In this document: in pieces, positions 10,874 through 57,328 of the stretch
Position numbering within the stretch: the stretch's first letter is position 1
Layout of the letters: each line of letters begins with the position of its first letter
The notes under the pieces: model-generated
What the model was told of the DNA's origin: nothing
Database searches by the model: none
What the model saw: the letters and a program-made list of their open reading frames with translations, nothing else
Origin: Bryum argenteum
Lineage: Eukaryota > Streptophyta > Bryopsida > Bryales > Bryaceae
NCBI GenBank assembly: GCA_037043015.1
Contig: CM073326.1
Location: 5,925,845 to 5,989,844, forward strand
Direction: 5' to 3'
DNA: 64,000 nt
Position numbers and translations under genes: made by a program

Positions 10874-11353
10874 TGATTAGCAATTTGAAGTTTTAGTATG
10901 TCAATCACATAGTCAAAGTTTGACGTGAGAAAGTTTAGAGGTCAACTTTAAAATCCAAAGATCTATGTTTTAAAGTTTACATTTATTTGAGGTTGGAAAA
11001 ATCTAAAAATTTGTCAAAAACAAGAAGAACCTTATGTCCAACTCTAAGCACAAAGATTTTACGTATGGTCATAGTTGTGAATATTAACATATGGCATACT
11101 TTTAAATATACGAGTTAGGTATTTGATCCTAAGATTTAGTCTTCAAATACATCAATGATTGAATTTTGATATTTCATGATAAAAGAGCAAATTCAAGGGT
11201 TAATTTGAAAACTTTTGTTACTTCATTTTAGAAACTAAAAAGATTAATTTCAACCCCTTCTTCTAGGCTACCCAAAACAACAAAAGCCCATTTCTTGTTC
11301 CTTAGGCCTTTAGGGATTAACCTCTATTTGTCATGGTATGTTTAATTTGAGTC
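10874..11353. other. Intergenic repeat DNA with an old TTAA-element end
   Basis: There is no gene. The empty TTAA site that is filled in the sister unit by the element at 40113 lies at 10970-10973. At about 11250-11317 is the right end of an older relative (CTTCTAGGCTACCC to TTTAGGGATTAA), also present at about 42267-42330. The remainder is AT-rich and shared with 41976-42355. Confidence 0.55.
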
Positions 11354-11357
11354 TTAA

Positions 11358-11964
11358 CCCTTAAGCGGGCCGAATGTCGAAAAACGACATTTTGGATGAC
11401 AGAAACTTTGGAGAGTCATAACTTCTTCATCCGGACTCCGTTTTGGACGAAATCACTTGGGTTGGGTCCCAAATCAAGTCTAGTTCACGTCATAAAAATC
11501 TCAGACCCATACAATGAAGTATGAATTAATGGCATGCATTTCAGTGACAGCAGCCTAGTTTTAGACATTTTTTCCTTTGTAAAATTTAGGGCAGTTTTCA
11601 CCATTGCAGGGCCATAATTTGCACAAAGAAATTTTTCTCATGGTTTTTTTTTGTTCAAGGATGCTACTGAGATGAAGGTGAACAACATTCTAATTGGTGA
11701 CTTTTTCATTGCAATAAGTCTAATGGTAGCATTTTCACTTTAAAGTGGAAATGATGAAATTATGTGATCATTTTTGAGTATTAATACATTATGATCTCGC
11801 AATCTATGAAGCCTCATGACTCAAAATTTGACCCACATGATGTTCAATATGTCTACGACAAGATTGTACGGTTGAGATTTGGATAACACACTTTTACCTC
11901 CACCTATGACAATGCTTTTGAGGATGTGTTCATTTTACTACAAATGAGTCAAACCATTTAGGGG
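11358..11964. mobile_element. TTAA-flanked transposon, 607 bp (family 1)
   Basis: TTAA lies at both ends (11354-11357 and 11965-11968). The ends read CCCTTAAGCGGG on the left and CCATTTAGGGG on the right. The sister unit carries a single TTAA (42356-42359) at the same place with the flanks joined (GAGTC-TTAA-ATTTC), which is direct evidence of a past insertion or a clean excision. There is no open frame of note, so it is non-autonomous. TTAA duplication with CCC-starting ends is typical of piggyBac, and TTAA is also used by Kolobok. The superfamily is inferred. Confidence 0.75.
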
Positions 11965-12195
11965 TTAAACTTCAAAGCAAATTGTAAGTGAAAGTAATTT
12001 GTTCAATTGTCGACCATACATTCTTATCCCCTTCAAAAACTAGACTCTACTTGGATCCAATCCTACAAATAACATCAAATTCATCGTTGAATTAAGGAGG
12101 TTCAACTCCTTTAAAAGCATGTATTATTTTAGTTGTTTTGGTATTATTAGTAGAGGAACATTATCCCAATCTAATACCAAACATCTTCTAGTTAA

Positions 12196-13136
12196 CCCTT
12201 TCATGACCAATCAACCAAATATGGTCGCTGAAGTGTGGTTATTCCATGATTGAGTAGAATCTGTGTAGAAAGAGCAAAATGTTAGAGAACAACGCTGGAA
12301 GAGGAGTGTGTACTGGATCTACTACACAAAACAACGATGCATTTGGACTTGTACTCCGCCTGCTAGAGCTGTCTATACATGGTGATGAGTATGCGATACA
12401 GTAGCTGGTCTGGAAAGAAGTCTGAAAGATTCAAGAAATAAGGCTGTCGAGGACACATGACACCAATTCTAAGGGTCCCTTGGGAACATGGGAACATGGG
12501 GGTACTACTCAATTGGCTCCATCGACAAAAGAACTGTTGATTTCTTTTGGCAACCCAACACCGTCTATCAAAGCGTATACGTTTGTACAACCTGAAATCC
12601 TCCCCAAAAAGAATCAACTACATGTTGTTTGCACACTAATTCTACGTCAAGGCTCGGCGTCCGATGAATGTGACCATGTCTGATTTTTCAATCTGACCAT
12701 ATTTGCTATGATATCCCATGTATTTCTCGTACGCTACCGTATACAAGGAACTGGGTTCTTGGTCTCTTTTCACAATTTCAATTTCATAAATGCTCGAAAT
12801 GCAACGCTCATGGTGTTGTTGGATAGATCTTCAAACTCTCTACAATATTGACCACATGTGTTTTGCCCAAATCTGGATATTCTGGTCTCTAATTCTAGTA
12901 AAAAGCTTTGAGGTCATGTATACGCTATGTACTACACTTGACTCAGAACATCATAATACTCTAGTTCATACGGTAGATCTGACCCATGTTTGGCCACTAG
13001 GATGTATATGAAGTTCACTACACATTTATACGGTCGGATCTTAATTTTGACCCTTCAATTGTTCGATGCATTCCAAAATACATCCAGACACCTCAAAAAA
13101 ACCTCGACTTCGAAAACAAGAGTGGTCATGAAAGGG
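12196..13136. mobile_element. TTAA-flanked transposon, 941 bp, with 14-bp perfect inverted ends (family 2)
   Basis: The left end is CCCTTTCATGACCA and the right end is its exact reverse complement. TTAA flanks both sides (12192-12195 and 13137-13140). The sister unit has one TTAA (42583-42586) and no insert. A CCCTTT start with TTAA duplication is a classical piggyBac-type structure. The interior holds only short frames (for example 84 codons on the minus strand, 12363-12617) that I do not recognise. It is probably a non-autonomous or decayed element. Confidence 0.85.
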
Positions 13137-13140
13137 TTAA

Positions 13141-26528: not shown

Positions 26529-29500
26529 CTAATCCAAGTTCTCATTTTCGATGTCATCTTCTGCAAATTCCTCCTCTGAATCAACCTCAACATTAAGTTC
26601 ATCAACTGAAAGGAGATTTTCTGGTGCTATCAACTTCCTCAAATGAACTTCTTGATTCGATGGGGCTATCTCTTCTTCTTCCTCCTCCTCTTCTAGTATA
26701 TTTTCCTCTTCTGCTCTAGAATCCTCCTCCTCTATTTCCACTAATGATTCCACCTCTACCAAGTTATCTTCTACTGTATTTGTGGTCGGTGTTGTGCTTT
26801 CGATCTCACCTGAATACTTGTATGTCACTGGACGTGCACGAGGATGGGCTTCCAATACCAATCTCCATCCTAAGTTGATGGTATCATCAACATAAAACAC
26901 CTGGATGGCATCCTCTGGATACATAAATGGTTCAAATTCGACCTTATCCTGGTTAGGTATGAATTGGTTTCTAACTCTGGTAATGCCACACTCATCTACA
27001 ACCACTGTTGTACTAGGACTTCTTTGGCTGATGTTGTTGTTGTACCACTGGCCCATAAAAAGGGTTTGAGCGTATTGATCGTAAAAAAGTCGAATTATGT
27101 TGGTTAAAATTCCATAAAACTCTGTCTTTGTAGCCAAACCAATATCAAAATACCCAAGAATACCTGAGTCAGATGTTATTTTCTTCTGCACATCTCTGTC
27201 TGCAATTCGGAAATGCCTTCCTCCTTGTACTGCTGAGCCAAAAAAATGAGCCTTTCTTGATGGACCACTAACAAGGCACATAATAACTTCATCTATTGGG
27301 TCTCCATCCTCCAAAGCTTTGAATATAGTATATCGGATCCATTCTGTAAATGGAATAATATCATTTCCAGCTCTCAATCTTTCACTTTCATATGTAGCCC
27401 GCCAACCATCTAATTTAGGATGGTTCATAAGTACAAACCTATGGGCTTGTTCATATAAAACATTTGACAAGTTTTTCGATTGGAATGCTTTCGGTAAAAC
27501 TAGGCCTTTTACTCTGTCAAATGGAGGAGACCACAACAGTCTAGAAAATACGTCTTTCTTGGGTATATACTCAGTTAAATAAGACATAGCTTCATAAACT
27601 ATATGCCCCTCTGCCATTGAACTCTCTGGTTTCGCCCTATGCCGAACATATCCTTTCAGCTCCTTCAAATATCTCTCCACAAAATACATCCAACGGTAAT
27701 GTACCGGTCCCGCATACTCAATGTCATCTACTATGTGAACTATCAAGTGTACTTGGATGTCAAATATGCTAGGTGGAAAAAACATCTCTAAGTGGCATGC
27801 TAGCTCGGCTGCTTGAGTTCTCATCTCCTCCAAATCTGATAATTTGATCTCCTTAGAACACACCCATTTGAAAAACTGTGCAAGTCTGTAAATAGTCTCT
27901 CTAACATTTGCTGTTAAAGTTCCTCGTACGGCAATAGGTAAGAAATCATGGAGTAGGTTATGCCAATCATGGGTTTTCAAACCAACCACCTTCTTGTCAC
28001 TAAATTTAGAGTTAAAGCTTGCTCCATATCCTGTTGGAGTCTTAATTGTACGAATTACTTCTGCCACTTTCTCGAACTCTGCATTGCTCCACCTCCATGG
28101 TGCTTTCCGATATCTAAATTCTTGTTCTCCAGAAATTGGTTGAAGGTATTTCATTCGATTCTGAAACTGTAATTCTAGGCGTTGTTCAATAGAATCTGAC
28201 TTTGTACCCTTTGCATTGGACATGGTTTTAAAAACTGATGCACATATGTTTTTTTCCATGTGCATAATATCCAATAAATGAGGATTATCCAAGACCTGGT
28301 GCCATGCATGAAGTTAGTTCATTCTTCAATTTCATTTTTAATCACTAATACCTAGAATTAAACAACTTCTATATAACATGAGAATAAATAATTATTCTTT
28401 TTGTTTTAATCAAATTATTGTTTAGACGTTATATTCATATGTTCACCTACTATGAGATGAGATAAAACTTGCCTTAAAGTATGGAAGTTGGAAAAAGACT
28501 AATTGTTGCTTCATTCCAGATTTCTCCAATGGTATATTGCCTGCCTTCACTTCTTCCCATTGGTGCATCCAAAATTCCATACTTGGTTTAGAAGGGGGTA
28601 GCCTCTTTTCAACCACTTCGTTGAATAAATGAGCTTTTCTTGAGCTGCGCAACTCATGTCCGGCGGGCAAAAATCTTCGATACCCGGTATATAACATTTT
28701 GCTCAAAAATGATGATCTATGAGAATCCAATTCTGATGGTCCGCACCTTGGACATGCAAAATGCCCTTGAGTTTGTAAACCAGAACATACCCCATATCCT
28801 ATACATGAATGATTATAATATATGTTAGGGTAAAATAAAATAATTGATGGTAAAAACAAATAAATAAATAAAATAAAATAAATTAGTACACAATCGTGCA
28901 TTACAATTCATGCTTAATTTATTTTTAGGTTTAATAGTATGTTACACTACAAAAAAAAGTAAAATAATTCCATAGCCCTAATCATAATTTCTTTTATTCT
29001 ATATATTTTTGGAATAATTTTTTAAAGATACTAGTATCTCTCACAAGTGATTGAAAGACAACCAAATTCAACTGAGAATTATTTTATAATAGCTTAATGA
29101 ATATTAAAACATAATAGATTTTTATATATAACTACCCTAACATATGCATGCCCTATAAAATTAAGATGCCATAATATAGTGAAGACCAAAACTCACCTGG
29201 CCAATCGTGTATTGTCCAAAGTAATACTGCTTTCAATTTGAATACTTCTTGTGTTACATAATCAAACGCTTGAACTCCGTTCTCCCATAATTGAACCAAC
29301 TCTTGAATAAGAGGCTCAAGGAAGACTTGCATATCCTTGGGTTTATTAGGTCCTATAACATCAACAACACAACACATTTTTATTAGTATATTGAAACGTA
29401 ATTCAATAGAAATAAGCTTTTATAAGAAATACACTTTAGTTTAGTAAAAATTACATACCATGAATTATAGCACTCAATAAAATATGCTCTTTTTTGATAC

Positions 29501-36439: not shown

Positions 36440-36645
36440 TTGAGTTCCCAAAGAAATTGAGGAAGTTCTCACAACGTTGTAAAAACACCTTCCAAAACGT
36501 TGTTTTGCTCCACCCTCCTCCTAGCACTTGTAGAACCGTTGTAAAAACAACGATTGAGAGGCTCTCCACTTGCTCCCATTCTTTGTACAAAACAACGTTG
36601 TAACAACGTCTGTGGCGTTGTAAATGGGGGTCTTTCCTAGTAGTG
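36440..36645. repeat. CACTA right end with subterminal ACAACGTT repeats
   Basis: The core ACAACG or CGTTGT occurs repeatedly in both orientations from about 36472 to 36621, before the terminal TCCTAGTAGTG. It mirrors the left end. Confidence 0.7.
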
Positions 36646-36648
36646 TTA

Positions 36649-39574
36649 TGATTCACTCTGGTGCAATTCATTGTGGAGTCATTCTATTGATGTGCTTCCA
36701 CTTCTGGAGTAGCTGAAATGTATTCCGGATTGAGTAGGATAAGAAACTGGCCATTGAACTCTCGCCAGAGAACTCAATTCCTTCGCATGCTTTTCCAAGT
36801 GGGCCACTATTGTGTTCACTCTTTAGTAAGTACTGCACATCGATTCACCTTTAGACTCCATTCAGTATACTTCTGATTCACATTATTCGCATGTATCTGA
36901 TGTGAGATGGAAACTTTCTCACTCGCTCAATTGTGATGTTTGTTTGATTCAACAAGATTGAGATTCTGATTCAGTTGGGCCGCAGATCGTTTCAGAACTG
37001 GCGCTTGGGGCATCCCACGAAGGAAATAGTTAGGTCTCAAGAAATGCAGGAGTGCAGTACATGGAGTAATACAGCACATATAACTTGGGGAGTTTTACAA
37101 TAGTGAAAGTGGAGTGGGCGAATGCAATGGAAATATCAACCCCTGAAATCTGATGATCTGCACAGGCTTCAAGTCCTCTGATTAATCTTGGTCCCTTCAA
37201 ATGCATGCATTTTTCTTTATTTTTTATTTTGATTGTTCATTGATCCCAACGGAGCGTGAAGTGAAGCTCATGGCAATTTTGCATTTGTGAATGCATGCAC
37301 TTACACGGTAGGATGAAGAACAATAGTGGGCTCGTCGAAAGCAAGTTTTCTTTTTTTATTCTTTTTTTTCTTGAAAACGGGCCTATGTAATTAAGTTTTT
37401 ACATGTAAATTGTAAAGTATTTCTTTAAGTTTGAAAAGAACTGTGAGGGTAAGAATTATGAGGACATGTACGTAACTCACCTACAAATAAATATGTGGAG
37501 TGCCTCATGTCAAATATTTAAAATTGACTTCCAGTAATGGTGTTTTTGGCCCCAAAACATCACTTTTCCATTGAAGAGCAAGAAAATTTACTTTTTCTTC
37601 AACTTTGATTATTATAGAAGCACAAATGTTGAGAATTCCAAACCTAAGATTTGGCATACATGTACATGTATAAGCTAGGGACTAGATCTGACCATCACAT
37701 CTCTCAAACCATAATTACAAAAGGGCAATTTTATGGGTTTTGACTTTTTCTTTTCTTTTTTTTTTATAATTTTTTAGGCCACTCGCCTTTATGGTTAACT
37801 ACTTTGTGTTAAACATGTAAACGAAGGAAAATAGAGAAGAAACTTAGGGAAGTGTGAATAGAGTGTGTATTTTACCCCTCAATTTTATATGAAATCAGGC
37901 TTCAAAAATAAATATTTCAAACACCTTTTTAATTTCAAGTGGGTAGCTCCAAAATCATTTCGGAACATTTTAGTTCCTAGTGCGTAGCTTTGAAGATTGA
38001 TCATAGACTCAATTTGAAGTTTTAGTTCCTAGTGCGTAGTTTTGAAGATTGATCATAGAATCAATTTGAAGTTGGGCATATCCGCACATGGAACAGTGCA
38101 ACTTTTAGAGCTAGGGCATGATGAATGAACCATGAACCAATCAACAATGAGCTTGCAACCTCTTTCAAGGCTATGTACAATCTCAATTCTTCCTACCACA
38201 ATCCTTCAAAGCACAAGTCACTTTATCCCCAACAGAATCTTATTTAATATTACAAGGTAATTAAATATATGGTGTATGATATTCATTGCTATTTATCAAG
38301 ATATGTAAATGTGGTAAATAAGGTATATATGTATTTTTAATCAACTAATCTGACCCCTCAAAATCCTTGTATTTTAAAGAGCTTCGGAACCAAAGGTTAC
38401 ACAACTCAAATTCGAAAGGCCGGAGAAGTTTCATGTCTATGCATATTGGCTTTTTTTTTAAAGCCTTCCTGTAAGACCCTCTTCAATATTCTTACTGTAA
38501 TTAAGTTATATGGATCCTTTCAACTAAGAACAACGCTGAGCCCGTAGTTGCGACTTGTAATGCGCTCTTGTGCGATGTGATAGGGTGTCATTCTTATGAT
38601 CGACGTGCTTCCACTTCTGATGTAGCTTGAGAGTTCTGGTTAAAGAAGAATGTGAAACTCGGAAGGAGAGAGACTTCTACATATAGAAACGTATTACACA
38701 CTTAGAGTTGCGAGCTTGAGGTTGTAAGATTTACAAACCGCCTATGCTAGAGAGAGAGGGAAGATTTTTACATTCCAGCAATGCCTCAAAACCTTATTTT
38801 CCAAGTTGAAAAAAAAGTACTTGGAAAATAAGGTTTTAAGGCATGATCTCACCGTTTGGATCTTTCATTTTATTCTGTATATGTCATTTTTATCATCAAA
38901 GAGGGGCCTTTGTAGTTGAATTTTGGTATAATTCCATGTGAACGTTCAACATTTCTTTAAGTTTTGTGGGTCAAAATAGCATAGACATGTTCCTAACTTA
39001 CTTCTAAACAATGATTTGAAGAGCCATATTTCAAATTTAGTCTTAAGATTGGTTTTCGGGGCACACAAAAAACATGGAACGCAATTTGCAACATGGGAAA
39101 AAACTTCAACTTTGAATGTTTTGATCTCACAATTGGTAAGGAATTCAGAACTAAGTTTTGGTACACACATACATGAACAAGTTAGGTGTAAGATCTTAGG
39201 GTCACATACTTGAGATTACGTCGAAAGTTAAAAATTTCCATCTTACATTGAAAGAGGGTGGTTTTAAGAAGTATTGGTAGTTTTGGGGGCTTTTGACTTT
39301 AGGAGTTAAGGGGGTATTGTGTTTATGTATGAATTAACCATGTAGCTCTTGTTCCATAACATAATCTGTTGGTTTGCTTATCTGACTGGACTATTGTAAA
39401 TGTTGAGTTGTAAATTGGAATCCAACCGAACAAAGAACATTGAAAGCAAACAGTACGATGGACATAGAGCTCTTAGAGAATAATGAGGTTTTTGGATTAA
39501 AACTATACCTTACAAATCTAACATCATACCTAGACCATATCACATATTTCAACTTGGATGGTGAAGTATGCATA

Positions 39575-39618
<44 letters not shown>

Positions 39619-39745
39619 GGTGTGGCTTGCAATGGAAATATGCACCCCCTTGTTTATAACTTTAAAACAAGAGTTGCTTGCAAGAAATTGCATGCCATTA
39701 TTTCATTTGATCTTTGATAAACTTCAGTATTTTATCACATAGAGC
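36649..39745. other. Intergenic DNA of the tandem unit downstream of copy B
   Basis: This resumes the unit interrupted by the CACTA element and aligns with 7655-10607. There is no supported gene. It contains the hairpin 38783-38842 and a poly-T tract of about 40 bases near 39579-39617. The stretch 39053-39213 has no counterpart in the first unit (about 10048). Frames that span the T tract are low complexity. Confidence 0.65.
38783..38842. repeat. 24-bp inverted repeat (hairpin), paralogue of 9781-9840
   Basis: The arms, about 38783-38806 and 38819-38842, pair with one mismatch around a 12-base A-rich loop. It occupies the same place in the tandem unit as 9781-9840. Confidence 0.75.
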
Positions 39746-39750
39746 AGACT

Positions 39751-40007
39751 AACCCCAATTCCGTTAAAAAGGCATTATTCCAGTAAAATGGCACACCTCA
39801 ACTTTCTGAACTGTAGTTCAAAAACCATGTGATATAACAGAATTTTAAGGTAATATTAGGGAAAATGAGTGATAAATGTGTATAAAGAAGTGATATTAAA
39901 AAAGAAATGTGATATTACAAAATATACCATTTTATGTGAGCACAAATGTAAGATCTAGTGTGACAAAATGACACATGGCATAGTGCCATTTTAACGGAAT
40001 TGGGGTT
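39751..40007. mobile_element. 256-bp MITE family, copy 2 (AGACT duplication)
   Basis: It has the same ends and interior as 10613-10868, flanked by AGACT (39746-39750 and 40008-40012). It sits at the paralogous place, so it was inserted before the units duplicated and is not an independent event. Confidence 0.85.
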
Positions 40008-40112
40008 AGACTTTATTAGCAATTTGAAGTTTTAGTATGTCAATCACATAATCAAAGTTTGACGTGAGAAAGTTTAGAGGTCAACTTAAAAATCCAAAAA
40101 TCTATGTTTTAA

Positions 40113-41971
40113 CCCCTAAAAATCCAAGCGTTTTTTGGTCTTCCAAAACCAAAAACTGCGATTTTCTACCACCTTGTTCGAATTGAGATATGGTCAAAAA
40201 AATTATTGTTTTTCTGTACTTTCAACCGTAAGATCTCAAACCCACCTACTATTTGTACTACCATGTGAAATTTCAACCGTTGGATCTTCACCATTTGTGA
40301 GATCGAAACATTCAAAGTTGATGCAGAAGTTTTTTTGGGCATTGCCTGTGAGACATTGTTTCCATGGAGCAAAGGGAAAATTGAAGATCGTTACCCCAAA
40401 CATACTTCCCATATTTTTTTCCATGTAGATAATCAAGTTCGGTACGCTCATGCAAAATTTTGGGAACTCATTCCATTTGTGTGACCTTCATGCAAATTAT
40501 TTCCTAGAAGAAGGTCTAAAAACAACAATATAGTAAAACATGCATTTCATTCAATATATTTGGTTCAATTTAAAATCCGAACGGTGAGTAGGTGCCTTTA
40601 TCTGTTTGTGAAATTTGAGAAAAAAAAAAATTTGGGAAAATTCCAAAACCTCAAATTTTGACAAATTTTGTAAGAGTTAATTCAGAAATTACTAAAAATT
40701 GTGAAGATTGTTTTTGTAATTTTTGAGGGCTGCCCTTGTGAAATTCACAAACTTTTTGAGTTAGCTCACTTTGGAACTCAAGTAGTGATTTGGTCATGAA
40801 CATATTTCCAAAAAAAAATCTCAAAAAAATACTAAATTTAAACTGCCCCAGTTCGGCTCGCAAAACAAGAATTGTTGTAGAAGACTCAAAAATTGGAATT
40901 TGGCTTTGCAAACTTTACCACGTAAACTTTGCAGTATAGGGAGCACCCATTAAAAAAATTGGGCAAAAATATTACTTTTAACCCCTAAAAATCCAGGAAA
41001 GCCGATTCGGTTTTCTGAGATTTCGGGCAGCTCATTTTAAGCATTTAAACTGATATTTTTGCCTAAGATTTTTATTGGGTGCTCCACATGCAGTAATGTG
41101 TATGTGGTAAAATTTTCAAAGTCAAATTTTAATTTTATAACCTTCATCTAGAAATTTTAGGTTTCAAGTCCAAATCGGGCAGTTTAAAATAATTTTTTTT
41201 AATTTTTTTTTTTTTAGAAATATGTTCATTACCAAATTACTATTCAAATTCCAATGTGTCCGAAGTCAAAAAGTTTACCAATTTTACAAGGGCAGCCTCC
41301 AAAACTTTCAAAAACAATCTTCACAATTTCTAGTAATTTTACAATTTTTCTTTCAAAAATTGCCAAAATTCGAGATTTTGGATTTTTTCCAAGATTTTTT
41401 TCAAAATTCACATTATCATAAATGCACCTTCTCACCGTCGAGATTTTTCTCAAACTAAATATATCATACGTGGTGCTTGTTTTACTATATGGTTGTTTTT
41501 AGACCTTCTTTCATAAAATATTTTACATTAAGGTCAAAAAGTGGAATTGGTCTCTAAAATTTTGCATGAGCATAACCAACTTGAATACCTACATGAAAAA
41601 AAATGAGGGAAAAATATTTGGAATAACAATCATCAAGTTGCCCTTGGCACCATTTAGACAATGCCTCTCACGCAGCGGCAAAAAAAAGTGTTGGTCAAAC
41701 TTTGATTGTTATGATCTCACAAATGAAAAACATCCAACGGTTGAAATTTTGACCAGTCCTTTGTATACAAGTTAGGTACAAGATCTTACGGTTCAAAGTC
41801 TAAAACCAGAAAAAAAAGTTTCTCCATTTCCCCATCTCCCAACGAAGGTGAAAAATGGCAGTTTTTGGTTCTGGAGGTCGAGGAAACCCCTGGATTTTTA
41901 GGGGTTAACCTATTCATCTAGGCTGCCCAAAATAGCAAAAGCCCGATTTGGTCCTCTTGGATCTTTAGGGG
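40113..41971. mobile_element. TTAA-flanked transposon, outer element interrupted by a relative (family 3)
   Basis: TTAA flanks both sides (40109-40112 and 41972-41975). The ends read CCCCTAAAAATCCAAG and TTGGATCTTTAGGGG. The first unit has the single empty TTAA at 10970-10973. A second element of the same family (40982-41904) sits inside with its own TTAA pair. Removing it and one TTAA leaves about 932 bp, close to the size of the inner one. There is no coding frame of note. Confidence 0.85.
40982..41904. mobile_element. Nested TTAA-flanked transposon, 923 bp (family 3, opposite orientation)
   Basis: TTAA lies at 40978-40981 and 41905-41908. The ends read CCCCTAAAAATCCAGG and CCTGGATTTTTAGGGG, a perfect 16-bp inverted repeat. 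The host sequence restored across the joint (ACTTTTAACC then TATTCATCTAGGC) matches the continuous version in the element at 57329-57907. Because it lies in reverse orientation to its host, the pair forms an approximately 900-bp imperfect palindrome. Confidence 0.85.
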
Positions 41972-41975
41972 TTAA

Positions 41976-44138
41976 AGTTTACATTTATTTGAGGTTGGAA
42001 AAATCTAAAAATTTGTCAAAAACAAGAAGAACCTTATGTCCAACTCTAAGCACAAAGATTTTACGTATGGTCATAGCTGTGAATATTAACATATGGCATA
42101 CTTTTAAATATACGAGTTAGGTATTTGATCCTAAGATTGAGTCTTCAAATACATCAATGATTGAATTTTGATATTTCATGATAAAAGAGCAAATTCGAGG
42201 GTTAATTTGAAAACTTTTGTTACTTCATTTTAGAAACTAAAAAGATTAATTTCAACCCCTTCTTCTAGGCTACCCAAAACAACAAAAGCCCATTTCTTGT
42301 TCCTTAGGCCTTTAGAGATTAACCTCTATTTGTCATGGTATGTTTAATTTGAGTCTTAAATTTCAAAGCAAATTGTAAGCGAAAGTAATTTGTTCAATTG
42401 TCGACCATACATTCTTATCCCCTTCAAAAATTAGACTCTACTTGGATCCAATCCTACAAATAACATCAAATTCATCGTTGAATTAAGGAGGCTCAACTCC
42501 TTTAAAAGCATGTATTATTTTAGTTTTCTTGGTATTATTAGTAGAGGAACATTATCCCAATCTAATACCAAACATCTTCTAGTTAAAAAACTTCCAAATA
42601 AAAGTTTGTTGGGCTTTATCATGAGTTTATACTTAAATATACTAGTAAGATCCCCGTCATCCTAGTTTGTTGGGCTTTTTCCTACGTTTATACTCAAATA
42701 TATATTCCTATTCTCAGTCATGAAATACAACACTCTAATTCAAATGATCGGAAACTAAAAGCCATACATTTCAAAAACCTACAAAAAGAATTTGCTTGCA
42801 CTTAAATGCATATCATAAAATCCTATGAACTTGGATAGATTTGTACCTTTTATTGTCTTGATACGAAGCTAATATGAAATACAATCGAACAAACTTTGTC
42901 AAAATCAACTTTTTTGATGTATAAATCATGGCTCTTTAAAGTTTTAGTGCCTCACCAAATAATGTGTTTTTGGCTCACTGTTGATCCCGAATTTCGATGA
43001 GCAGTAGCACTCTAAATAAAGATTCCTTTCGGATTTATTTCTACTTTCCAAAAGTTTGGTGAACTCTATTCAATTTACATAACCTTCTCTAGATTCATAG
43101 GTTGTTCATTAAGTCTTCAGACACAAACATTGCAAGGTTTCCTTAGTATTGGAGAACTTATTACTCTGGAAAAGTAATAGTGTTTCTCTTAGGTTATTGG
43201 TGGCCTTTCTCTATATTAACATATAGTATGTTATTTTAGCCAATCACAACAATTTCCAACTACTGATAATAGAAAATGTATTTCCTAGTGATTTTTGAAG
43301 GTTTTACTCTCTATAATGCATTGTAAAATCAATCATTACTATTTAGAAAAATTTAACCTTATTGTTCTTATTAAGCATTATAATTTTCATGTTTTCTTTT
43401 CAGCAAAATTCCAAAAGAATTACATAAGCATATTTCATAACACATTTAAATTATTCTCCAAACTCGTTTGGCCTTTAGAGAACAAGTACAAAGTCCAAGT
43501 AAATTGTTGTTATACATGCTCACGACTTTTGTCTACCAATCGAGCGCGAAAGCGCAAAATTGGTACGTAGCAGCAAGCCAGTATGAGTCGTGGCTGGGGT
43601 GCTCGGCATGCTACGCAACGTAGGAAGTCAGCCACACGGCAGATTGCCACCCATAAACACGCGCCTCCTATACTTGCCAAAAGCTTTTCACCTCCTTGAA
43701 TTCGACCATGAGCAAGCAATTAAGAGTATTAATCCTAGTAAACACTCTTTGCATGGCTGTTAACATTATGATAACTATATCTCTAGTACTAAAATGAAAA
43801 GTGTCATTAACCTCCTCCGCAAGAGAGCCAACAAAATGTGCTGCAATTACAAAGTTGAGCTGCTGTAGTATAATTGGTAGGCAAAATTGAGTGGCAAGCC
43901 ACTTCAAACTTTAACCACATTCTTCGAGTTGTTGGATTTGTCGGCAATCTAAACATGCACGCCAAATTTCCGCATGTCCCGGAATTTCAAGCCATTTCAT
44001 CTATACAAGCAAAATCCTGAACAAGTGATATGTCACTTTGCATTTTACTGCTTCTTGGTGTTTAAATATGCAATGTCCACTCAGAGGGTATTACTTTGTA
44101 GTCCTATACCACTCTTGTTATGTTCTGTGGGAATATAT
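41976..44138. other. Intergenic DNA of the tandem unit upstream of copy C
   Basis: This aligns with 10974-11353, 11969-12191 and 13141-14693 of the first unit, with the two TTAA elements of that unit absent here. There is no supported gene. Confidence 0.65.
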
Positions 44139-44457
44139 GGTAAGGTGTCCTATAATAGCGCAATTTTCAGCACAGAAAATCTACTGGAATGTTGCGAGTG
44201 CACGCAATTTTGGTGCATGGGGAAAATTAGTAGAAAACTAAAGCAAGTGGAATCATCATTTTTGGACTCTTCTACAGTGAGTAATGAATTTTTAAAGATG
44301 GAAATATAGGTGTTCCTAAAATGGTGCCCTAAAGTGACGCCCTACAATCTTTGCAGAGTGTACATGGTACTATTGTAAGGAGAAGCTATTATGTACGTGA
44401 CAGTGAAGATTACTAGGGCTCCATTTTCGGCACTGCGCCATTTTTGGCTGCTCTACC
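44139..44457 (+). mobile_element. 319-bp MITE with GGTA...TACC ends
   Basis: It is absent from the first unit, where GAATATATTC is continuous at about 14688-14697. Here ATAT lies on both sides of the insert. The ends are GGTAAGG and CTCTACC, and the interior has no coding capacity. Relatives lie in reverse orientation at 34820-34987 (in the CACTA element) and, more decayed, at about 61436-61582. Target duplication is 2 or 4 bp; the superfamily is unassigned. Confidence 0.7.
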
Positions 44458-44750
44458 ATATTCAAGGGTAGGCTGAGCGGACCAACCTGAAAGGATTTGG
44501 TATTCTTTTCATAGCGATGTTGTCTCGAGAGACTTGATTCCCCTTAGGAATCCCACTTTTTGATAACGAACAATTTTCTTCGCTGAAATGGCAATCGATC
44601 GAGATGGGTTGGAGTTGACATAGTGAGCCTCTTTTGAAAAAGTGGCGCTGAAGAAAAGAAGACTTTGACTTTTGACTGAGTCTTGGCTTTCGGCACTAAT
44701 GAAGAGAGTCCAGCTAATGGCAGCTACTAAACAAACAGTGCCAAGGATTT

Positions 44751-45032
44751 CTACTCATTTGATTGCTTCCTTTGTCTGTGAAGCCGTACTGTAATTTGAG
44801 GATGCGAGGCAAGGACCTTGTTTGACTTATTCACATGAGACAGGTGCCACTCACTCGCTCGCTCTAATAATTCTGAATAAAAATATTGGTCCCTGAAAGC
44901 GTAGAATACGTCAACGTGGATTGGAATTAGGCAAGTTCGCAGTTCGACACTTCCCACAATCCCGCCAGCTTCTCGGTCTGTAGGAAGATGCACGCCATAA
45001 AGCTTCAACTCAGGGTCGGAGATGTGTGCCAT
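44751..45032 (-). CDS. Hypothetical 93-aa frame, paralogue of 14984-15265
   Basis: The frame MAHISDPELKLYGVHL.. has two residue changes from the upstream copy. It is antisense to and upstream of TNL copy C. The family is not recognised, and it may be a chance frame preserved only because the unit is young. Confidence 0.3.
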   Translation of the reverse strand: MAHISDPELKLYGVHLPTDREAGGIVGSVELRTCLIPIHVDVFYAFRDQYFYSELLERASEWHLSHVNKSNKVLASHPQITVRLHRQRKQSNE

Positions 45033-46635
45033 TTCAAGTGAACGCTATGTTACTCCGCACCATTGCTCCCAGTACCGACAGTTCACGATATCAGATATAT
45101 GGTAGACTATAGCAGCTACATGGTTGTTGTTGTTTTGAGGAACGTACCACAGCAGCTGCAGAACTCAAGCTAAGGAGTAAGAAACACTGCAAGTCAAAGA
45201 TTTCCTCTTGTGTTTGAGGATGTGAGACGGCGAGAGAGACGAAGAGAAATTCTCGGTAGAAACGTGCTGAAGGTGAGTCGTTTCCTGCTCACTCTTGTCT
45301 CCTGGACGTTCCGAGACTGATTCTTGTCCTCAGCTTCAGATGCCGCAACTACTCCCTTAGGGTTAGGTCATGAACAGGGGCACAAAGTTTTCGAACTTTT
45401 TGTAGCGATATGATCCTGCTGGTTTTTGAAGGACAAATTCGCTGTGGAGAAGCCTCTGGCAACATGTAACCACGGAGGGTAGATTTACCCCTTGTGTTTC
45501 TGCCAGATGCGTGATTACAACCGTGTTTGTACGTCTCTTTCGCTGTCAAGTGAACCTTCGGTTGTGATCATTGTCGAGTATATTTGTGTTTCCCAAATTC
45601 CCTTTGTATAGAAAATTATTTTCAATCAAGCTCTTTGATTTCACTACATCCACCACAAATTTGAAAATGGATCTGAATAGAACTTGATCTGAAAGCGATA
45701 GAAATAAAAATATTGAGGGGATAAGAAGGTCCCCAAACACCTGAGCTATCAGCAGAGGCTCAGCACCCTCTGGGTGTGCGAGGCTCGAAATGTAGAATGC
45801 GTGGTCATGAGGAGAAAATCATAACGGAATTATCGGCAATTGAGCCACGAGTGCTTCCCCGCTGGCTGAAGTTCTTCAGAGTAAAGGAGAGCTTGCAAGA
45901 GTGCGCACGTTTTTCTATTGAGTGTATCAAGTTTGTACCGGATCGTGACTAGTCACTTGGGGTTGCAACGAGCAACGCTCATGGCCTTCAACCAAATGCA
46001 ATCTGCGTGTGTGTTCAACTCTTACAGCCTGCTGCTTCTTGCTATTGTGGAGCGCGAAGTCAAGAGATGAACGTACACTTCTTTTGTTGCATATTTAGAT
46101 TAGTTATTACGTCTCCTTTCTTGGCGACATTTTTATAGTTTGCATGACCCACAAAGACTTGTTGATACTGAAGCAGATAAGTTGGAGTTGCACCTTCCTG
46201 ATTTTGAAGTAGAAAAGCTGAAGGTGTTGCTCTGAAGTCAGTATTTATGTAGTCGGTGGGGAATTTTTGTTGAATTCGTCAAAACTACCACATCTTTTTC
46301 ACAACCTCCTCATTTGGTAGTTGTTGACTAACAAGCTGCCCAGTTGTGATAATTCATGGCGCAATATTGACAAAGTTATATACAAAAACGTGCTTACATG
46401 TATACAACATGGCCTTGGCAGTAGGAGATTGACGCTTAATGGTGAACCTACCCTTTCGAAAGGGGGCAAGTTCTTGACGTCTCCTTAAAGTGCAAGAGGT
46501 TGTAAACCATAGCTTGGGCCGATTGATTTGTAAAATTTTCGCGGAATCCTTAAATGACTGCAAAGGCGTGAAGGATCAGGAGGACCAGGGGCCAGTTTCT
46601 GAGAGAGCTTGAAGGTACTGCGAAGCGCCATCAAT
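45033..46635 (+). promoter_or_regulatory. Upstream region of TNL copy C
   Basis: It aligns with the region upstream of copy B, with small indels. There is no gene. The short frame DTEADKLELHLPDFEVEKLK near 46164-46232 corresponds to that near 16380 and has more changes. Confidence 0.35.
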
Positions 46636-49600
46636 ATGGAGAAATCCATGATCTCATGCCGAGGGTGGAAACGCTCTGCCGGAAATGTTTTAGAGGAAGC
46701 TGGTGCTGATGAACATGAGCAGCTCGAAAGTTTGGAGAGTTGCAAACGTCGTCGGACCAAATTTGATATATTCATAAATCACCGGGGGCCTGATGGTAAA
46801 GCTTTTGCCTCTCATCTTGCGGAAGCGCTTACGTTAAAAGGGTACGCTCCTTTCTTTGATCAAACAGGACTGGTGCGGGGGGAGCGTGTCCCCGAGGCGA
46901 TCAGAGTTGCCATTCAAGATGCGTGCGTTCACTTGGCAATATTCACCCCCCTCTACGCGGAGTCCAAGTACTGCCTGGACGAGCTAGCTAACATGGTGGA
47001 GTGTGTAAAGAAGGATTCTCATGGCAGCGTAAAGTTGATACCTATCTTCTTGAAAGTGACTCCTTCGAGTCTTCGGTGTGTAGAGAGAGGGCCTTTCTAT
47101 GAAGCATTCGAGCACCATAAGCAGAGAGATCGAGGCTCACGCATTCATGTTTGGAAGAATGCTCTTCATGAGGCTGCCGACATGATGGGCTTTGAAAGTG
47201 ATAAATTCAAGTAAGTCCTGAAGCATCATACATGAATGGCGATTTTGACTTTGAAATATTGTGATTGACAATGAATAGTAGATTGAGGGCATGGTGTATT
47301 GAGAGAGAGAGCCCAATAGTACTGACCTCTTTATGGATATTAATTTTCTTAATGATAGAGTATGAGTCCGTTTCGTATGGATCTTGATTGTGTGCAGGAA
47401 TGAAAGTGAGCTCAAAATCGCTATTGTTGATCGAGTTGAAGAGATGATCGATTCAGTGCGAGTCGAAAGAACAGAGCGTATTCCAAATCGCATTGTTGGT
47501 CGTAAGCATCTGCTTCGATTAGGTCTCAGTAAACTTGAATTCATGGGGAACAATGTTGCCATACTTGGCATTTGGGGCGCAGGTGGCATTGGCAAAACAA
47601 CTCTTGCGAAGGAATTATACAATCATTACTCAATGCAACGATTATTTTGGTACCAAGCTTTCTTGGAGCTAGGCAAAGGTAAAGATGTGGTGCATTTGCA
47701 AAATCAAGTACTTAAGCTGCTCGGCAAAAAGGAGAAAAATGTGGCTGAAACGTACCGAGGTTATTTCAAGAAACTCGTCAGTGATAGAGTGCTAGTTGTA
47801 TTAGATGACATCTCCTACCTGCAACATTTCACGGAGCTCATACCGGACTTGAAGAAACTTGGAGGTGGGAGTCGTATCATTTTAACATCACGTGACAAGG
47901 ATGTCTTAGATTTGGCCTTCAAGGAAGCACCTCAAGCTCACTATTTAGTTGAGATGCCGGTGCTAAACTTTCATGAGTCATTGGAGTTGTTTTGTGTTCA
48001 CGCATTCCTGAACAAATCAATTCCAAACCATAAGCACCGATTGTACCCTCTTGCAAAGAAAGTAACAGATATGTGTAAGGGATTACCATTGGCGGTGGAA
48101 ATCATTGGAAAGTATCTATATAATAGGTCGGAAGAAGAGTGGGAAGAGGAAGCTCGAGAAATGAGCCCCAATTTGGACGTCCTCGATACACTAAGTATGA
48201 GCTACAAGGGACTTCGTTCGAAGTCGGACAAGATGATGTTCTTGGATATTGCGTGTCTCATGGTTGGACTTCTGAAGGAAGATGCTGTAGACATTTGGGA
48301 GTCTTGTGCGTCACGTGATTCGAATCCTCCGTGTAGACCTAACTACTGTTTGACCTCTAGAAAGGTGAAGGGCTCCTTGCAAACTTTAATAAACAAGTCA
48401 CTTGTGAAAGTGAGCTATGAGGGAAGATTGACCATGCACGACCTCATCCAAGAGATGGGTAGAAAGATGGTTCAAGACGAGTTGGTAGATGGAGGACATC
48501 GCGGCGTCGGAGAATACAGCCACTTGTGGGATCCTGCAGACGTCGAGGATGTTCTAAATGATGAAGAGGTATGCATATTAAACATCTTTGTATATAGTAC
48601 AATCCAACATGTGTTGCATTTCCATTTGCAATTTTGAAACTCTTTGAATTGTTTTACTTTTACTTTTCAACTGTGGGAGGATTATATGGAATTCATTCTA
48701 TTGAATCATATGCGTTTTGGATCCTTTAGGTGTACGGAAAGTACTAGTGTCTCAAAATGAAAACTCTATTTTGGGGAATGATCTTGTCATATTCTTTGAT
48801 TTTGATAATAAAATCATTGAGTAATATATGTGATGAGTTTATAAAATTTGATTTTATTATTGTATAGGATACAGTTCTGTCTATATCGTGTGTAATTCAG
48901 AGACGTATTGTATGTAGGGAAAAATCTCCTATTTGTGACTCTAAAGTTTTTCTAATAATTCTCTCCTTTGTATTCAAGTCTGAGGCAATTGAATTCAAAT
49001 ATTAGATCTAGATATGATTAAACATAGTGAAAGAAGGCATTTCCACAAAAAGTTTAGCATTGTAGAGGCCCAACATGGCATGAAGTTTACAACATGTCGT
49101 CATAAATAGCAACTATTTTATTATAAAATAGAGCACCTACTACCACCAAGTTCTAACACCTCAAGTGGCTATTAGAGCTTCCATTTGGTTGGGCATCGTA
49201 TAAACGAACTTCCTAATACTTTCTTGACATACATTCTCTTTTGCCAAATCGTCTAATGTGCATGTTTTGTTTTTACTTTGTGGTCTTTTATTTAAATTGG
49301 TTTAGTCCTCATGTTCTCTATGGGATTGAGTTGCTATAAATTTGGTAGGCATCTATTAGTGTTTAGGCACATAATGTTAAACATAAAAAATAATTACTAC
49401 TTAACACAATTTAATCAAAGAATTTTAAGAGCAATATATGTACACTATTTGTGACAGTTTCTCCCTCAAAAGCTTTCTAAGGTATGTCAAAAACTAACAT
49501 ACTCACGAATCATGTACATGCGATTGTAAATTCTCTCAACTTCAAACTTCTTGCAAATCTCATACTTGACATTAGTCTTTGTGTGTGGAAATTGAGCTTG

Positions 49601-51713
49601 ATGTCGATTAAGTAATCCACAAAATCAATGCAAATTGATTTTTAGATTTTATATTGACTTAAAAAAACGTTAACATACTTCTCTAAAACAAGAGAAATTT
49701 CCTTATAATATCTTCAGCAACTTGCCAAAATTTCAACTCGAATGTAGACATTGCCAGAGTTTGGAGAGATGTTTTAAACTATATAGGGTTCTAAGATATG
49801 TTGACACTTGGTTAGTTTCCCTAACTAGCATCTGCGTATTGATTTGTGGCATTACAATAATAGCAGTTCTCATTTGAAACTTTTGGATCATGCCTAGTAT
49901 TTGTGGAGCTCGTATCATAAATAGTGTGACTCATATTGTAATTTTTAGTTACAATTTTTGAATGTTGTGTGTTCTCATTTAGTGGTTCTTGTTACTTGAC
50001 ACTTGTTCAGGGGACAAAGGAAGTCCGAGGCCTATCGTTGGTTGGGTTGAATGGGAAGACTTTCATGACTTCAGCATTTCGAAGCATGACTGAGATTCAC
50101 TTGCTCCAATTAGATGGAGTTCATATAGAAGGAGACTTTTCACAAATGCCCAAAAAGACCCGTTGGATGCAGTGGAGGAATTCATTTCTTTGGAGTCTGC
50201 CTTTGGAGCTGCATTGCTCGAACTTGGTAGTTTTGGATCTTTCGGATAGTAAGAATCTCACTCAATTATGGGGAGAGCATGAGGCATTTCAGGTATACAA
50301 TTTGCATCCATTTCACACTTGAACCCTCTACTCTAGAAAGATACACATAGAATAGTAAGTGAAATGGGTGTTTACTCCAGTATTAATAATTAGATTAGAG
50401 TCAGTGTGCAAGGTTAGTAAAGAGCTTGCAAATTATTTGTGTTGTGTTTTCTCCACTTCATTGTTGCTGTAGAGTCACTTTGCCTTACTTGGACTTTACT
50501 TCATCAGACAGTTTGCACTATTGAGGTGGTTTTGATTGTGTTTGTGTGTATGTAAATGCAGGTTCCGAAGTTATTGAAAACTCTGATCCTTGAGAATTGT
50601 ACTTCGCTAGAGAAGATTCCAGAAAATATCAAGTTTCTTACGAGGCTAAGGAAACTCAATTTGTATAATTGCGAGAAGCTCGCATCTCTACCAAGTTGTC
50701 TTGGCGAACTGAAGGGACTCGTCAGTTTGAACTTGAGTGGCTGCAAGCGTTTGGAGGCCTTGCCTGATAGTGTGGTGAAGCTCCCAATTCTCAAGACATT
50801 CAAGATGAAGGGATGCGTCAAGATACAAAATCTGCCAGCAAATTTTGGAAATCTTAAGGCATTGGTTACATTCTCTGCTAGGGAAGCTTCCAGTCTAACT
50901 GCCTTACCTGATTCTTTCTCCAATTTAACTTGTTTGGAGAGGTTGGACGTGAGTGGATGCAAATAGTTATCCCAATTGCCGAGGTCTGTGAAGAAACTAA
51001 CACACTTGAGAGATTTTAATGTCAGCAACACACCTATCCGAGAGTTACCTAGTGACCTCGGGGATGTCAAAATCAGTCAATGGCTTGATCTCTCAAGGTG
51101 CCACCAATTAGAGAGTCTCCCCGATAGTTTTGGAGACCTACTTAATCTCAAGCATCTCACCCTAGGTAGGAGCTTGATGTTCAAGAAGCTATCAAACAAC
51201 TTTGGACAGTTGAAATTTCTTTCCTCGCTAGACCTCGCCGAGTGTCCTATTGAAGACGGAGATATACCTTCCAGCTTTGGAGGCTTGCAAAATTTATCGG
51301 AGCTTCATATGGAGAAAAATAAGATGACAAAGTTACCTTGTAGCTTCAAGTTTCTCACAAGCTTGTACTACCTGAATATGCAAGGAAGCCCTAATCTTGT
51401 CGTTGTTGAATCTCTGCCCGTGTCAGTTAGAAGATTGGACCTTGAAGATTGCCCCAAGGTGGTGATTATTTCTGTCAAGGAGCTATCAAAGCTTACAATA
51501 CTCATCCTGTGCAATTGCAAAAGCTTGACTAAGTTAGAAGGGGTGGAACATGCGGATTCCCTTGAGGAACTGAACGTGAGTGGATGTTGTAGTCTATCGG
51601 AACTACAAATTGACCTCCTCCAACTAAGAATATCAAAGTGCGATATAAGTGGGAGTGGAGTGTGCGTGAAGTATAACAACGATTGGAACCAGGTATTAGA
51701 TACTGTCCTCTAA
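46636..51713 (+). pseudogene. TIR-NBS-LRR copy C, one stop in the LRR and last exon lost
   Basis: Exons: TIR 46636-47210, NBS 47398-48568, LRR-a 50011-50292, LRR-b 50562-51692, with borders and phases as in copy B. All TIR and NBS motifs are present: IFINHRGPD, CLDEL, GAGGIGKTT, VVLDDISYL, GGGSRIILTSRD, CKGLPLAVE, MHDLIQEMGR. TAG at 50964-50966 (TCT in A and B) stops the protein at about 810 aa, after roughly five LRRs. The remainder of the exon is open to 51713 when read into the next intron. Exon 5 is missing: a 256-bp MITE and then unrelated module-2 sequence follow. A truncated TIR-NBS-partial-LRR protein could still be made, so it may not be inert. Confidence 0.88.
48569..50010 (+). other. 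Intron between NBS and LRR exons of copy C
   Basis: A 1.44-kb AT-rich intron from GTATGC to TTGTTCAG, aligned with those of copies A and B. No gene is seen in it. Confidence 0.75.
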
Positions 51714-51819
51714 ACTTTTCCTGTATCCACTGGAAGCTCACAGAAAGCATTGTTTGCAATATTGAATGTTGAATTGACATTCGAAGTCCTAACATTTCTA
51801 AGCTGAATGTATACGAGGA

Positions 51820-52075
51820 ACCTCCATTCCGTTTAAATGGCACTATGCCATGTGCCATTTTGTCACACCAAATCTTACATATGCGCTCACGTAAAGTGGT
51901 GTATTCTGTGATATCACAATCTTTTTGATAATATCACTCCTTTATATACATTGTCACTCATTTTTCATAATATCACCTTCAAATTCTGTTATATCACATG
52001 GTTTTTGAACTGCAATTCAGAAATTTGAGGTGTGTCATTTTAGCAGCATAACGCCATTTTAACGGAATTGGGGAT
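51820..52075. mobile_element. 256-bp MITE family, copy 3, in the last intron of TNL copy C (GAGGA duplication)
   Basis: GAGGA flanks both sides (51815-51819 and 52076-52080). In copies A and B the same intron reads ACGAGGACTTTTTCAG with no insert. The ends read ACCTCCATTCCGTTTA and TAACGGAATTGGGGAT. It is an independent insertion from copies 1 and 2, because its target differs. Confidence 0.87.
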
Positions 52076-52081
52076 GAGGAC

Positions 52082-53290
52082 ATTTTCAGGCTAGCCTTGC
52101 AATCTTGAAGCACGACTCATACAATTAGATGAAAGATGGATTGGATGTGGAGGTGTTCACGAGCCGTCCTTACGAATTACGCGACGCCACGTAGACCATA
52201 AGAATCCGAGTGTATATGTGCACGCTACGCAGATTGCACCTCGTCATTCAATTTCAAAGGCTGAAGCAGGGCGACAAGCTTTGTGTGTATGCACTTTCCA
52301 GATATCAGAAATGGGGAATCTCAGTCATGCAAGGACAGATTCTTGTTGCTTCCGACCAGCATACAACGGAAGACCCATTTCAGAATTTGTTGCTGAGAGA
52401 TAATTTGAGCAACGATATCCGAGCACAACCTTTTCCTAGAGTCTGCCAAGCATTCACCAAAAAACCGTCACATCTTCACAATCAAAAATAGTGATGTTAA
52501 TTAGGTTGTCATAGTTTTTGCACGAGTGGTTTGTGAAGCACTTGCCGTCGAAGTCGATGGCCGATCCCCTTGCTCGGAAGTTGTAAGTTCCACTGCCAGG
52601 ATCATTCAGCAGCTTACCATCGTTCTCTTTTTTTGGAGCTTGCTAAGAATTTTTTGTGTTGCAGTCAGGTGGCTACCATGTCCTTCAGAAGCTGTGGCAT
52701 CTGCAGCAAGGTCATTTCTGAACCGGGTTACCGTAACAACGCATGTGCTGATTTCCGCATGTGTAAGAGTTTCAAGGAGGTGCAGCATTGAGCCCAACCA
52801 TCGGAACATTCTTTGAAAGCGATTGAGGCGAATCCTGTTGTTGAAAGCACAAATGGGGACTGGGGGTATCTGATGCGTGCTTTAGGGTGGTGTGATAGCT
52901 TTCCTGCTTCGGGTGATTCCCTCCTTCTACAAATGCTAGAGTTTGTGTGAAGCAACGACCGTCGGAATCAAACCCAAATTACGATACTGACTACATCGTG
53001 GACGTGGACGTTGACGTGGACGTTGTCATAGTAAGTTCTTTTGGTTCACTGCTCGTGCATCAGAGGTTGCAGTGTGTTGTCTCTGCAGCAAATCAAAGGC
53101 GGTGGAGGGCTGGATATGAAACATCATCACTCGACGGTACTTGCTGTTTCGCATTATCACTCGAGCGGAGGGAGAAGGTGCATGTCCACTGACAATGGTC
53201 TCTCGACAACCCTTCTTGTGAGACCGTCTTCATGGTACGGATGTCTATATACTCCGGCAGTAAGGACTCTGTTCGAGCATGTTGTACCAA
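52082..53290 (+). pseudogene. C-terminal module 2 fused behind copy C
   Basis: Right after TTTTCAGGCTAG the sequence switches to that found at about 6380 behind copy A (CTTGCAATCTTGAAGCACGA), so about 1.8 kb including true exon 5 has gone. One frame reads LDVEVFTSRPYELRDAT, a stop, and then from 52210 an open 93 codons (MYMCTLRRLHLVIQ .. QGQILVASDQHTTEDPF), which matches exon 5. Next come a block ending GTAAGT near 52585, the Cys-rich segment SCGICSKVISEPGYRNNAC (from 52679), an Asp-Val repeat near 52985-53027 and the RRWRAGYETSSLDG block (about 53040-53260). Confidence 0.55.
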
Positions 53291-54560
53291 CTTATGATTC
53301 ACTCTGGTGCAATTCATTATGAATTCATTCTATTGATGTGCTTCCACTTCTGGAGTAGCTGAAATGTATTCTGGATTGAGTAGGATAAGAAACTGGCCAT
53401 TGAACTCTCGTCCGAGAACTCAATCTCCTTCGCATGCTTTTCCAAGTGGGCCACTATTGTGTTCAGATAGATAGGAACTCCGGTCCCTTTTCAAGGGGCC
53501 GGCGTGAATGAAGTGTCTGTTCGTAATGCTAATATCCCGATGGCCACCGGACAAGGGGAAATTGAAACAATACTACTTCCCCTCAAATATTGTGTTCACT
53601 CTTTAGTAAGTACTGCACATCGATTCACCTTTCTCCATTCAGTATACTTCTGAATCACATTATTCGCATGTATCTGATGTGAGATGGAAACTTCCTCACT
53701 CGCTCATTTGTGATGTTTGTTTGATTCAATAAGATGAGATTCTGATTCCGTTGGGCCGCAGGTCGCTTCGGAAATGGCGCTTGGGGCATCTCACGAAGGT
53801 AATACTTAGGTCTGAAGAAATGCAGGAGTGCAGTACATGGAGTAATACAACACATATAACTTTGGGGAGTTTTACAATAGAGAAAGTGGAGTGGGCGAAT
53901 GCAATGGAAACATCAACCCCCTGAAATCTCATGATCTGTAGAGTCTTCAAGACCTCTGATTTATCTTTGGTCCCTTCAAATGCATGCAATTTTCTTTTTC
54001 TTTTTCTTTTTTTTGTTCCATGATCCCAACGGAGCGTGAAGTGAAGCTCATGGCAATTTTGCATTTGTGAATGGGCATGCACTTACACGGTAGGATGAAG
54101 AACAATAGTGGGCCCGGCGAAATCAAGCTTTTTTTTTTTCGGGCCTTTGTAAATAAAATTCAGTACACCTTCGTGTAAATTTTTAAGCATTTCTTTGATA
54201 AGTATTGTGAGGGTAAAAATTATGTAGACACTTACGTACGTACGTCACCTACGAGTAAGAATGTGGAGAACCTCATGTCAAATTGACTTCCAATAATGGT
54301 GTTTTTGGCCCCCAAACATCACTTTCCCATTTAAGAACAAGGAAAATTACTTATTTTTCGACTTTGATTATTACGAAAGCACAAATGGTGAAATCTAGAC
54401 CTAAGATTTGGCATACATGTACATGTGTAAGCTAGGTGCTAGATCTTACGGTCACATCTCTCAAATCATGTTTGGAAGTGAAAAAGTGCACCTTGCATTA
54501 AAAATGGGCTATTATTGACGGATTTGAGACCACTCGCCTTTAGGGTGAAGCAATTTCAAC
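53291..54560. other. Third copy of the downstream intergenic DNA, then end of the tandem array
   Basis: It aligns with 7655-8760 and 36649-37770 until about 54540, where similarity stops. This marks the edge of the repeated array. There is no gene. Confidence 0.6.
53466..53587 (-). mobile_element. Short retroposon with microsatellite tail, 11-bp target duplication
   Basis: A 122-bp insert flanked by TATTGTGTTCA (53455-53465 and 53588-53598). The other two units have one copy of the site, uninterrupted (for example CCACTATTGTGTTCACTC near 7792). The core (CCGGCGTGAATGAAGTGTCT onward) is shared with 9586-9680. GATAGATAG at the left end corresponds to a TATC-type tail on the minus strand. The source (LINE or SINE) is unknown. 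Confidence 0.7.
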
Positions 54561-56228: not shown

Positions 56229-56592
56229 TTAATTTCAAATACGTACTTTGAACTTGACAAAAAAGTTCTTATACTTAGAATATGCAAGGAAGTCAAATGA
56301 TAGTAAGTGTTCATATCTAACCTTTGATTCAATTGAGTTTATTAGAGGGTGTTGGCTAAACAACCATAGGGGGTCAAAAATACACATGTATTGCTTGATA
56401 TTCTACCATGAGATTGTTCATTGTGTAGTAAGCATAATACTTGTTACTTGAAAATGGTACAAAAACTATTAAATTTTGTACAATTTGGTTCATATGACAA
56501 AAATATGTTGACTATAGATCTTAATTCATATTTGATTGAATTCATATTGATTTTTAGTGTGCAAATTTCACACTTAAATATTTGTATTTTAA

Positions 56593-57158: not shown

Positions 57159-57328
57159 TTAAACAATCAATACTTCATTTGATCGATTAGAAATTCCCCA
57201 CTTTTGACAGAAATTCTACAAATGAGTGGATCCAACTTTTGCGAACACTATCTTGCTAGGATATCAACGCTATTCTATGGGATGTGGAAAAGTAAACACC
57301 GCTTCAAGCACTTCAAGAAAACCTTTAA

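Follow-up and report, generated by a model that had tools for sequence, protein, structure and literature searches.

Two transposons of Bryum argenteum, here called e1 and e2, are with a probability of about 90% non-autonomous, miniature-type piggyBac elements that would depend for their movement on piggyBac transposases supplied in trans from other parts of the genome. Judged from sequence comparison, this assignment is strongly supported for e1 and very probable for e2, where its basis is the TTAA duplication, the ends and the context. Both elements lie in the 64,000-nucleotide stretch that we analysed (the window; G000:C6:5925845-5989844), and their relatives were sought in the 258.8-Mb assembly of 25 contigs. 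In the mechanism that we propose, the transposase would cut at the CCC ends, the element would insert into a TTAA that would become the 4-bp duplication, excision would be seamless, and e2 would be mobilised by a piggyBac partner. We also lean, at slightly better than even odds, toward a multi-family piggyBac system that is currently or very recently active, in which near-identical full-length transposase elements would be spreading together with several miniature families.

Elements and empty sites in the window

The TTAA boundaries given for e1 and e2 in the preliminary description were exact on re-reading (Table 1). The e1 ends, CCCTTAAGCGGGCC and, as the reverse complement, CCCCTAAATGGTTT, both start with CCC and are inverted just loosely, the match being weak past CCC(Y)TAA. 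The e2 ends, described earlier as perfect over 14 bp, were confirmed as the inverted repeat CCCTTTCATGACCA, which also starts with CCC. The longest stop-to-stop frames are 56 codons in e1 and 85 codons in e2. The paralogous unit does contain, as had been reported, exactly one TTAA at each joint, and the flanks of the two units are 99.0% (388 bp), 97.4% (231 bp), and 98.4% (1,555 bp) identical.

Table 1. Positions of TTAA-bounded elements and their empty sites in the window
Feature	Position	Strand	Remarks
e1, non-autonomous, 607 bp	11358-11964 (11354-11968 with TTAA on each side)	.	TTAA at 11354-11357 and 11965-11968
e2, non-autonomous, 941 bp	12196-13136 (12192-13140 with TTAA on each side)	.	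TTAA at 12192-12195 and 13137-13140
e1 empty site, paralogous unit	42356-42359	.	One TTAA, flanks joined
e2 empty site, paralogous unit	42583-42586	.	One TTAA, flanks joined
Element A	40109-41975	-	TTAA-bounded, B nested inside; ends TTAACCCCTAAAAATCCAAGCG / TTAACCCCTAAAGATCCAAG
Element B	40978-41908	+	TTAA-bounded, nested in A; 20-bp perfect inverted ends (TTAA included)
Empty site of A/B, first unit	10970-10973	.	One TTAA
Element C	56589-57162	.	TTAA...TTAA; CCCCTAAA ends; 77.8% identical to D
Element D	57325-57911	.	TTAA...TTAA; CCCCTAA ends

The two units are reciprocal: e1 and e2 are found in the first unit only, and element A, inside which B is nested, in the second only. Elements A, B, and D resemble a 5.7-kb transposase element found elsewhere in the genome (L074, see below). 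Over alignments of 409 and 62 bp, the outer parts of A show 77% and 79% identity, respectively, to the ends of that element, the ends of B are 69-73% identical to them, and D has three stretches of 41-131 bp that are 73-88% identical to its terminal parts.

The units themselves (window positions 1-24500 and 36600-54500) are paralogous, belong to a resistance gene cluster of the TIR-NBS-LRR type, and carry TIR, NB-ARC, and LRR frames. Where they align over long stretches, identity is mostly 83-99%, and they are separated partly by transposon insertions. A DUF4218 frame, a domain of CACTA-type transposons, was seen at window positions 26529-28313 (-).

Copies, target sites, and age

The preliminary description had proposed a genome-wide search for e2 ends flanked by TTAA, and the outcome bears it out. 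The e2 14-mer CCCTTTCATGACCA occurs at 277 places (142 + 135), and in 269 of them it is preceded by TTAA (TTAACCCTTTCATGACCA; 138 + 131). Exact matches to the left and right ends of e1 number 351 (175 + 176) and 413 (201 + 212), respectively, and none of these four patterns was found when reversed. On contig C2, 48 of the 57 e1 left ends had a right-end partner no more than 700 b away, leaving 9 left ends and 22 of the 70 right ends unpaired. DNA searches with the whole elements gave 40 matches at 95-100% for e2 (40 scored of 180 candidates) and 40 long matches at 99-100% for e1 (40 scored of 6,121 candidates), the latter with 2 further short matches at 75% and 87%. The claim of two different TTAA-target families is supported.

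Target sites were compared in a set drawn from loci L001-L068, comprising 31 rows for e1, from 30 distinct places, and 37 for e2, from 34. The copies fetched were the best matches and are biased to similar ones, except that L001-L008 were picked by end pattern alone. Two loci with one e2 end missing each (L002 and L004) and partial e1-like matches of 66-83% were left out. The duplication was TTAA/TTAA at all 34 e2 places and at 29 of the 30 e1 places. At the remaining e1 place (L063, G000:C6:7612909-7613522), TTAG was present on both sides, which points to a true duplication. TTAA accounts for 342 of the 63,997 tetramers of the window, so that flanking of nearly every place by chance is excluded. 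With 22 matching bases out of 30 on a side taken as the mark of relatedness, the flanks were otherwise unrelated between copies. The exceptions were rows from the same place, the e2 places L001 and L003, which have flanks in common, and the pair L028/L036, which has the right flank alone in common (28/30 bases, compared to 5/30 on the left).

Relative to their majority, the e1 copies showed 1-3 differences over 607 sites in a sample biased to close matches. The e2 copies, in a likewise biased sample, showed 14-45 differences over approximately 941 sites, with a median pairwise divergence of 4.7%. By these counts, the e1 burst looks very recent and the e2 burst older. The proposed recent activity is supported for e1 and for the 5.7-kb family.

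These ages also bear on whether the joints of the second unit are seamless excisions, e1 and e2 having once been present in both units. Excision by piggyBac restores a single TTAA with no footprint, as stated in the accessible part of one source (PMC7351741), and for this reason insertion and excision histories leave the same sequence. However, the reciprocal pattern would require several separate excisions, and the few differences among e1 copies (in the biased sample) compare with 1.0-2.6% between the flanks of the two units. This comparison favours insertion of e1 after the duplication. We regard excision as unlikely and insertion into one unit as the better account of the joints.

piggyBac transposases and the proposed partners of e1 and e2

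A profile search of the genome with PF13843 found 775 candidates, of which 116 were scored. All 116 matches lay above the cut-off, and 93 of them (counted from the table) had no stop in the matched stretch. The same profile was found in none of 14 control genomes. At two loci, L074 and L075, an element of 5.70 kb is held in common at 99.84% identity. Its ends are CCCCTAAAGGCCCA, CCCC-ended, and it is flanked by TTAA/TTAA in L074 and by ATAA/ATAA in L075 (G000:C8:13521752-13527451), the second non-canonical duplication. In a DNA search for this element, 26 of 3,988 candidates were scored, and all 26 were full-length and 100% identical after rounding, indicating at least 26 full-length copies; one of the matches starts at base 2.

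The L074 end preceded by TTAA occurs at 533 places genome-wide (276 + 257) and at none when the pattern is reversed. Among the 100 places listed, there were 14 inward pairs 5,700-5,716 bp apart, 26 pairs 268-273 bp apart, and one pair at a distance of 11,156 bp; the remaining 18 places had no partner. The 26 short pairs represent miniature forms of the family (approximately 269 bp), which were seen as pairs of ends. When the 22 PF13843 matches on C1 and C2 (from the 116 scored of 775) were compared with these places, 4 lay inside 5.7-kb pairs. The other 10 of the 14 pairs were without a listed match, possibly because 116 of the 775 PF13843 candidates were scored. At G000:C2:1907221-1918618, two end pairs of this family stand back to back with one TTAA in common, as if one had inserted into the duplication of the other.

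The 831-codon frame of L074 matched PF13843 (DDE_Tnp_1_7) with an E value of 1e-75, piggyBat in the PDB (9c0f) with 3e-28, and PDB entries 6x67/6x68, whose chain is named "Transposase" and which we take to be insect piggyBac, with 4e-25. Aspartates 537, 628, and 745 of the frame, which sit in TIDEMM, MDNYFTS, and RGVDVADQ, were aligned with the piggyBat aspartates (DDD triad); for insect piggyBac, the accessible part of the source gives D268, D346, and D447 (PMC7351741). The transposase frame is followed by a Cys-rich stretch that lies in another frame, reads differently in L075, and gave matches below the cut-off to zf-Tnp_2 (E=0.05) and to zf-HIT (E=0.0015). Some piggyBac members lack the C-terminal cysteine-rich zinc-binding domain. 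Given the change of frame and the different reading in L075, the L074 and L075 copies may lack a full transposase, the gene being either spliced or broken, and these copies may themselves be moved in trans. Upstream of the transposase, a 168-codon frame (L074:5666-6169, -) matched no Pfam family. In viral contigs, 2 stretches fit a peptide pattern of the L074 transposase, and neither was confirmed as a relative.

The link of e1 to these genes comes from two e1 left ends on C2 (C2:24942685 and C2:1099528), which lie 3,292 and 3,232 bp upstream of PF13843 matches on the same strand. These are 2 of the 17 PF13843 matches on that contig (116 scored of 775). Among 20,000 random placements, two or more such cases arose in 62, and offsets within 60 bp arose in none. 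The 421 b read at each locus contain TTAA followed by the first 46 bp of e1, at 96% identity in L077 and 85% in L076. Past these 46 bp, neither locus resembles e1, although over 410 b the two are 74% identical to one another. The sequences before the TTAA are unrelated. The match at C2:1102760 has a stop inside, and that at C2:24945977 lies in a 1,226-codon open frame. We infer that each of the two e1-type left ends and the transposase match downstream of it belong to one element. The left end of e1 would then be shared with elements that encode a PF13843 transposase.

An exact search did not find the e1 right end near these two transposase matches, and e1 may therefore combine the ends of two relatives or families. 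The exact 18-bp left end followed by a different second base identified no other element genome-wide. One e1 right end (C2:22527934) lies 4.4 kb upstream of a transposase match (C2:22522369), a single case that may be due to chance.

For e2, 100 of the 269 exact ends were listed, and not one of these was within 8 kb of the 116 PF13843 matches; the exact end with a different next base gave one match, which is itself an e2 copy (L023). A looser search based on the e2 end gave 328 matches compared to 25 for the control, of which 100 were listed. Among the 61 of these listed with letters, 14 were e2's own exact ends, and 13 read CCC(C/T)TAAATG(A/C)CCA. Two of the 100 loose places were within 8 kb of a PF13843 match, and nothing is drawn from either: the place at C2:16640251 is directed away from a 5.7-kb family element, and that at C3:19635350 (+), which precedes a same-strand match by 3.7 kb, was listed without letters. 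The transposase-bearing element with e2 ends that had been sought was accordingly not found among the listed ends (100 of 269 exact, 100 of 328 loose) and the 116 scored of 775 transposase matches.

Long intervals between e2 ends (4.1, 6.7, 8.3, and 11.7 kb; L069-L073) were considered as autonomous elements and rejected, being interrupted e2 copies. By eye, retrotransposon-like frames were seen in L070 and L072 and none in L069 or L071. In L070, the e2 copy is broken by retrotransposon-like sequence in which an open frame of 1,287 codons is, again by eye, apparently Gypsy-like. Bases 47-190 of e1 recur in L069 at 86-88% identity, without the ends.

The piggyBac type that had been proposed for both elements is thus strongly supported for e1, whose left end stands upstream of PF13843 matches; for e2, no transposase-bearing relative was found among the ends and matches listed. 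Kolobok also duplicates TTAA, and a Kolobok-type or other TTAA-using transposase might move e2, and perhaps e1, the piggyBac genes being coincidental. The result for e2 among the listed places agrees with such a history. The position of the e1 left end upstream of piggyBac transposase matches speaks against it, as does the resemblance of the e2 end to the common TTAA|CCC ends, a likeness that arises partly by search design. We consider a Kolobok-type mover very unlikely and place e1, and very probably e2, in piggyBac. That the joints are deletions of a longer shared sequence, or the TTAA a chance match, found no supporting evidence and deserves next to no weight, given that exactly these boundaries, with TTAA on either side, recur at dozens of independent places and that TTAA precedes nearly all e2 14-mers. 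Neither finding that the preliminary description had named as contrary to it, the same ends with non-TTAA flanks or joints that are deletions of a longer sequence, was seen.

Comparison with known systems

The piggyBac type is best known from animals, and a footprint-free transposon tool derived from one of them is in wide use. If the active system proposed here is real, it would be a native plant counterpart of that tool. The hundreds of copies, the near-identical full-length elements, and the reciprocal empty sites offer material for asking how piggyBac could multiply in a plant, whether it is still mobile, and whether a transposase native to plants would be of use there. They also show that transposon insertions separate paralogous units within a cluster of disease-resistance genes.

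The preliminary description called this type of transposon rarely described in land plants. The accessible parts of several sources already report it from plants: plants are among the hosts of piggyBac (PMC8086355, PMC10813416), PiggyBac is among the plant superfamilies (PMC10794571) and among the seven MITE superfamilies of angiosperms (PMC10004981), a table of a fern genome has 1,230 PiggyBac-labelled repeats (PMC6890710), and an account of the feather grass genome mentions piggyBac once (PMC8319324). Word searches of the open-access literature found no report of a large, young piggyBac burst in land plants, bryophytes included. The kind is therefore known in plants, and the scale and youth seen here look new.

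Kolobok resembles the present elements in its TTAA duplication and differs in that its transposase belongs to another family. The piggyBac-type MITEs of animals are short non-coding elements flanked by TTAA and present in many copies, and the elements described here are like them and those of angiosperms in these respects. A possible point of difference is that one family here has full-length as well as miniature forms, both abundant and with the same ends, and that further families (e1, e2, and A-D) occur besides. Members of the piggyBac superfamily such as insect piggyBac and piggyBat share with the present system the TTAA duplication, the ends starting with CCC, and a PF13843 domain with three aligned aspartates. 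The occasional other duplications, TTAG in L063 and ATAA in L075, are a further likeness, and TTAG is listed among the non-TTAA duplications of animal piggyBac elements in the accessible part of one source (PMC10813416). In contrast to that superfamily, the host here is a land plant, the 5.7-kb element has an 831-codon frame together with the upstream 168-codon frame, and the Cys-rich domain is weakly seen and in another frame.
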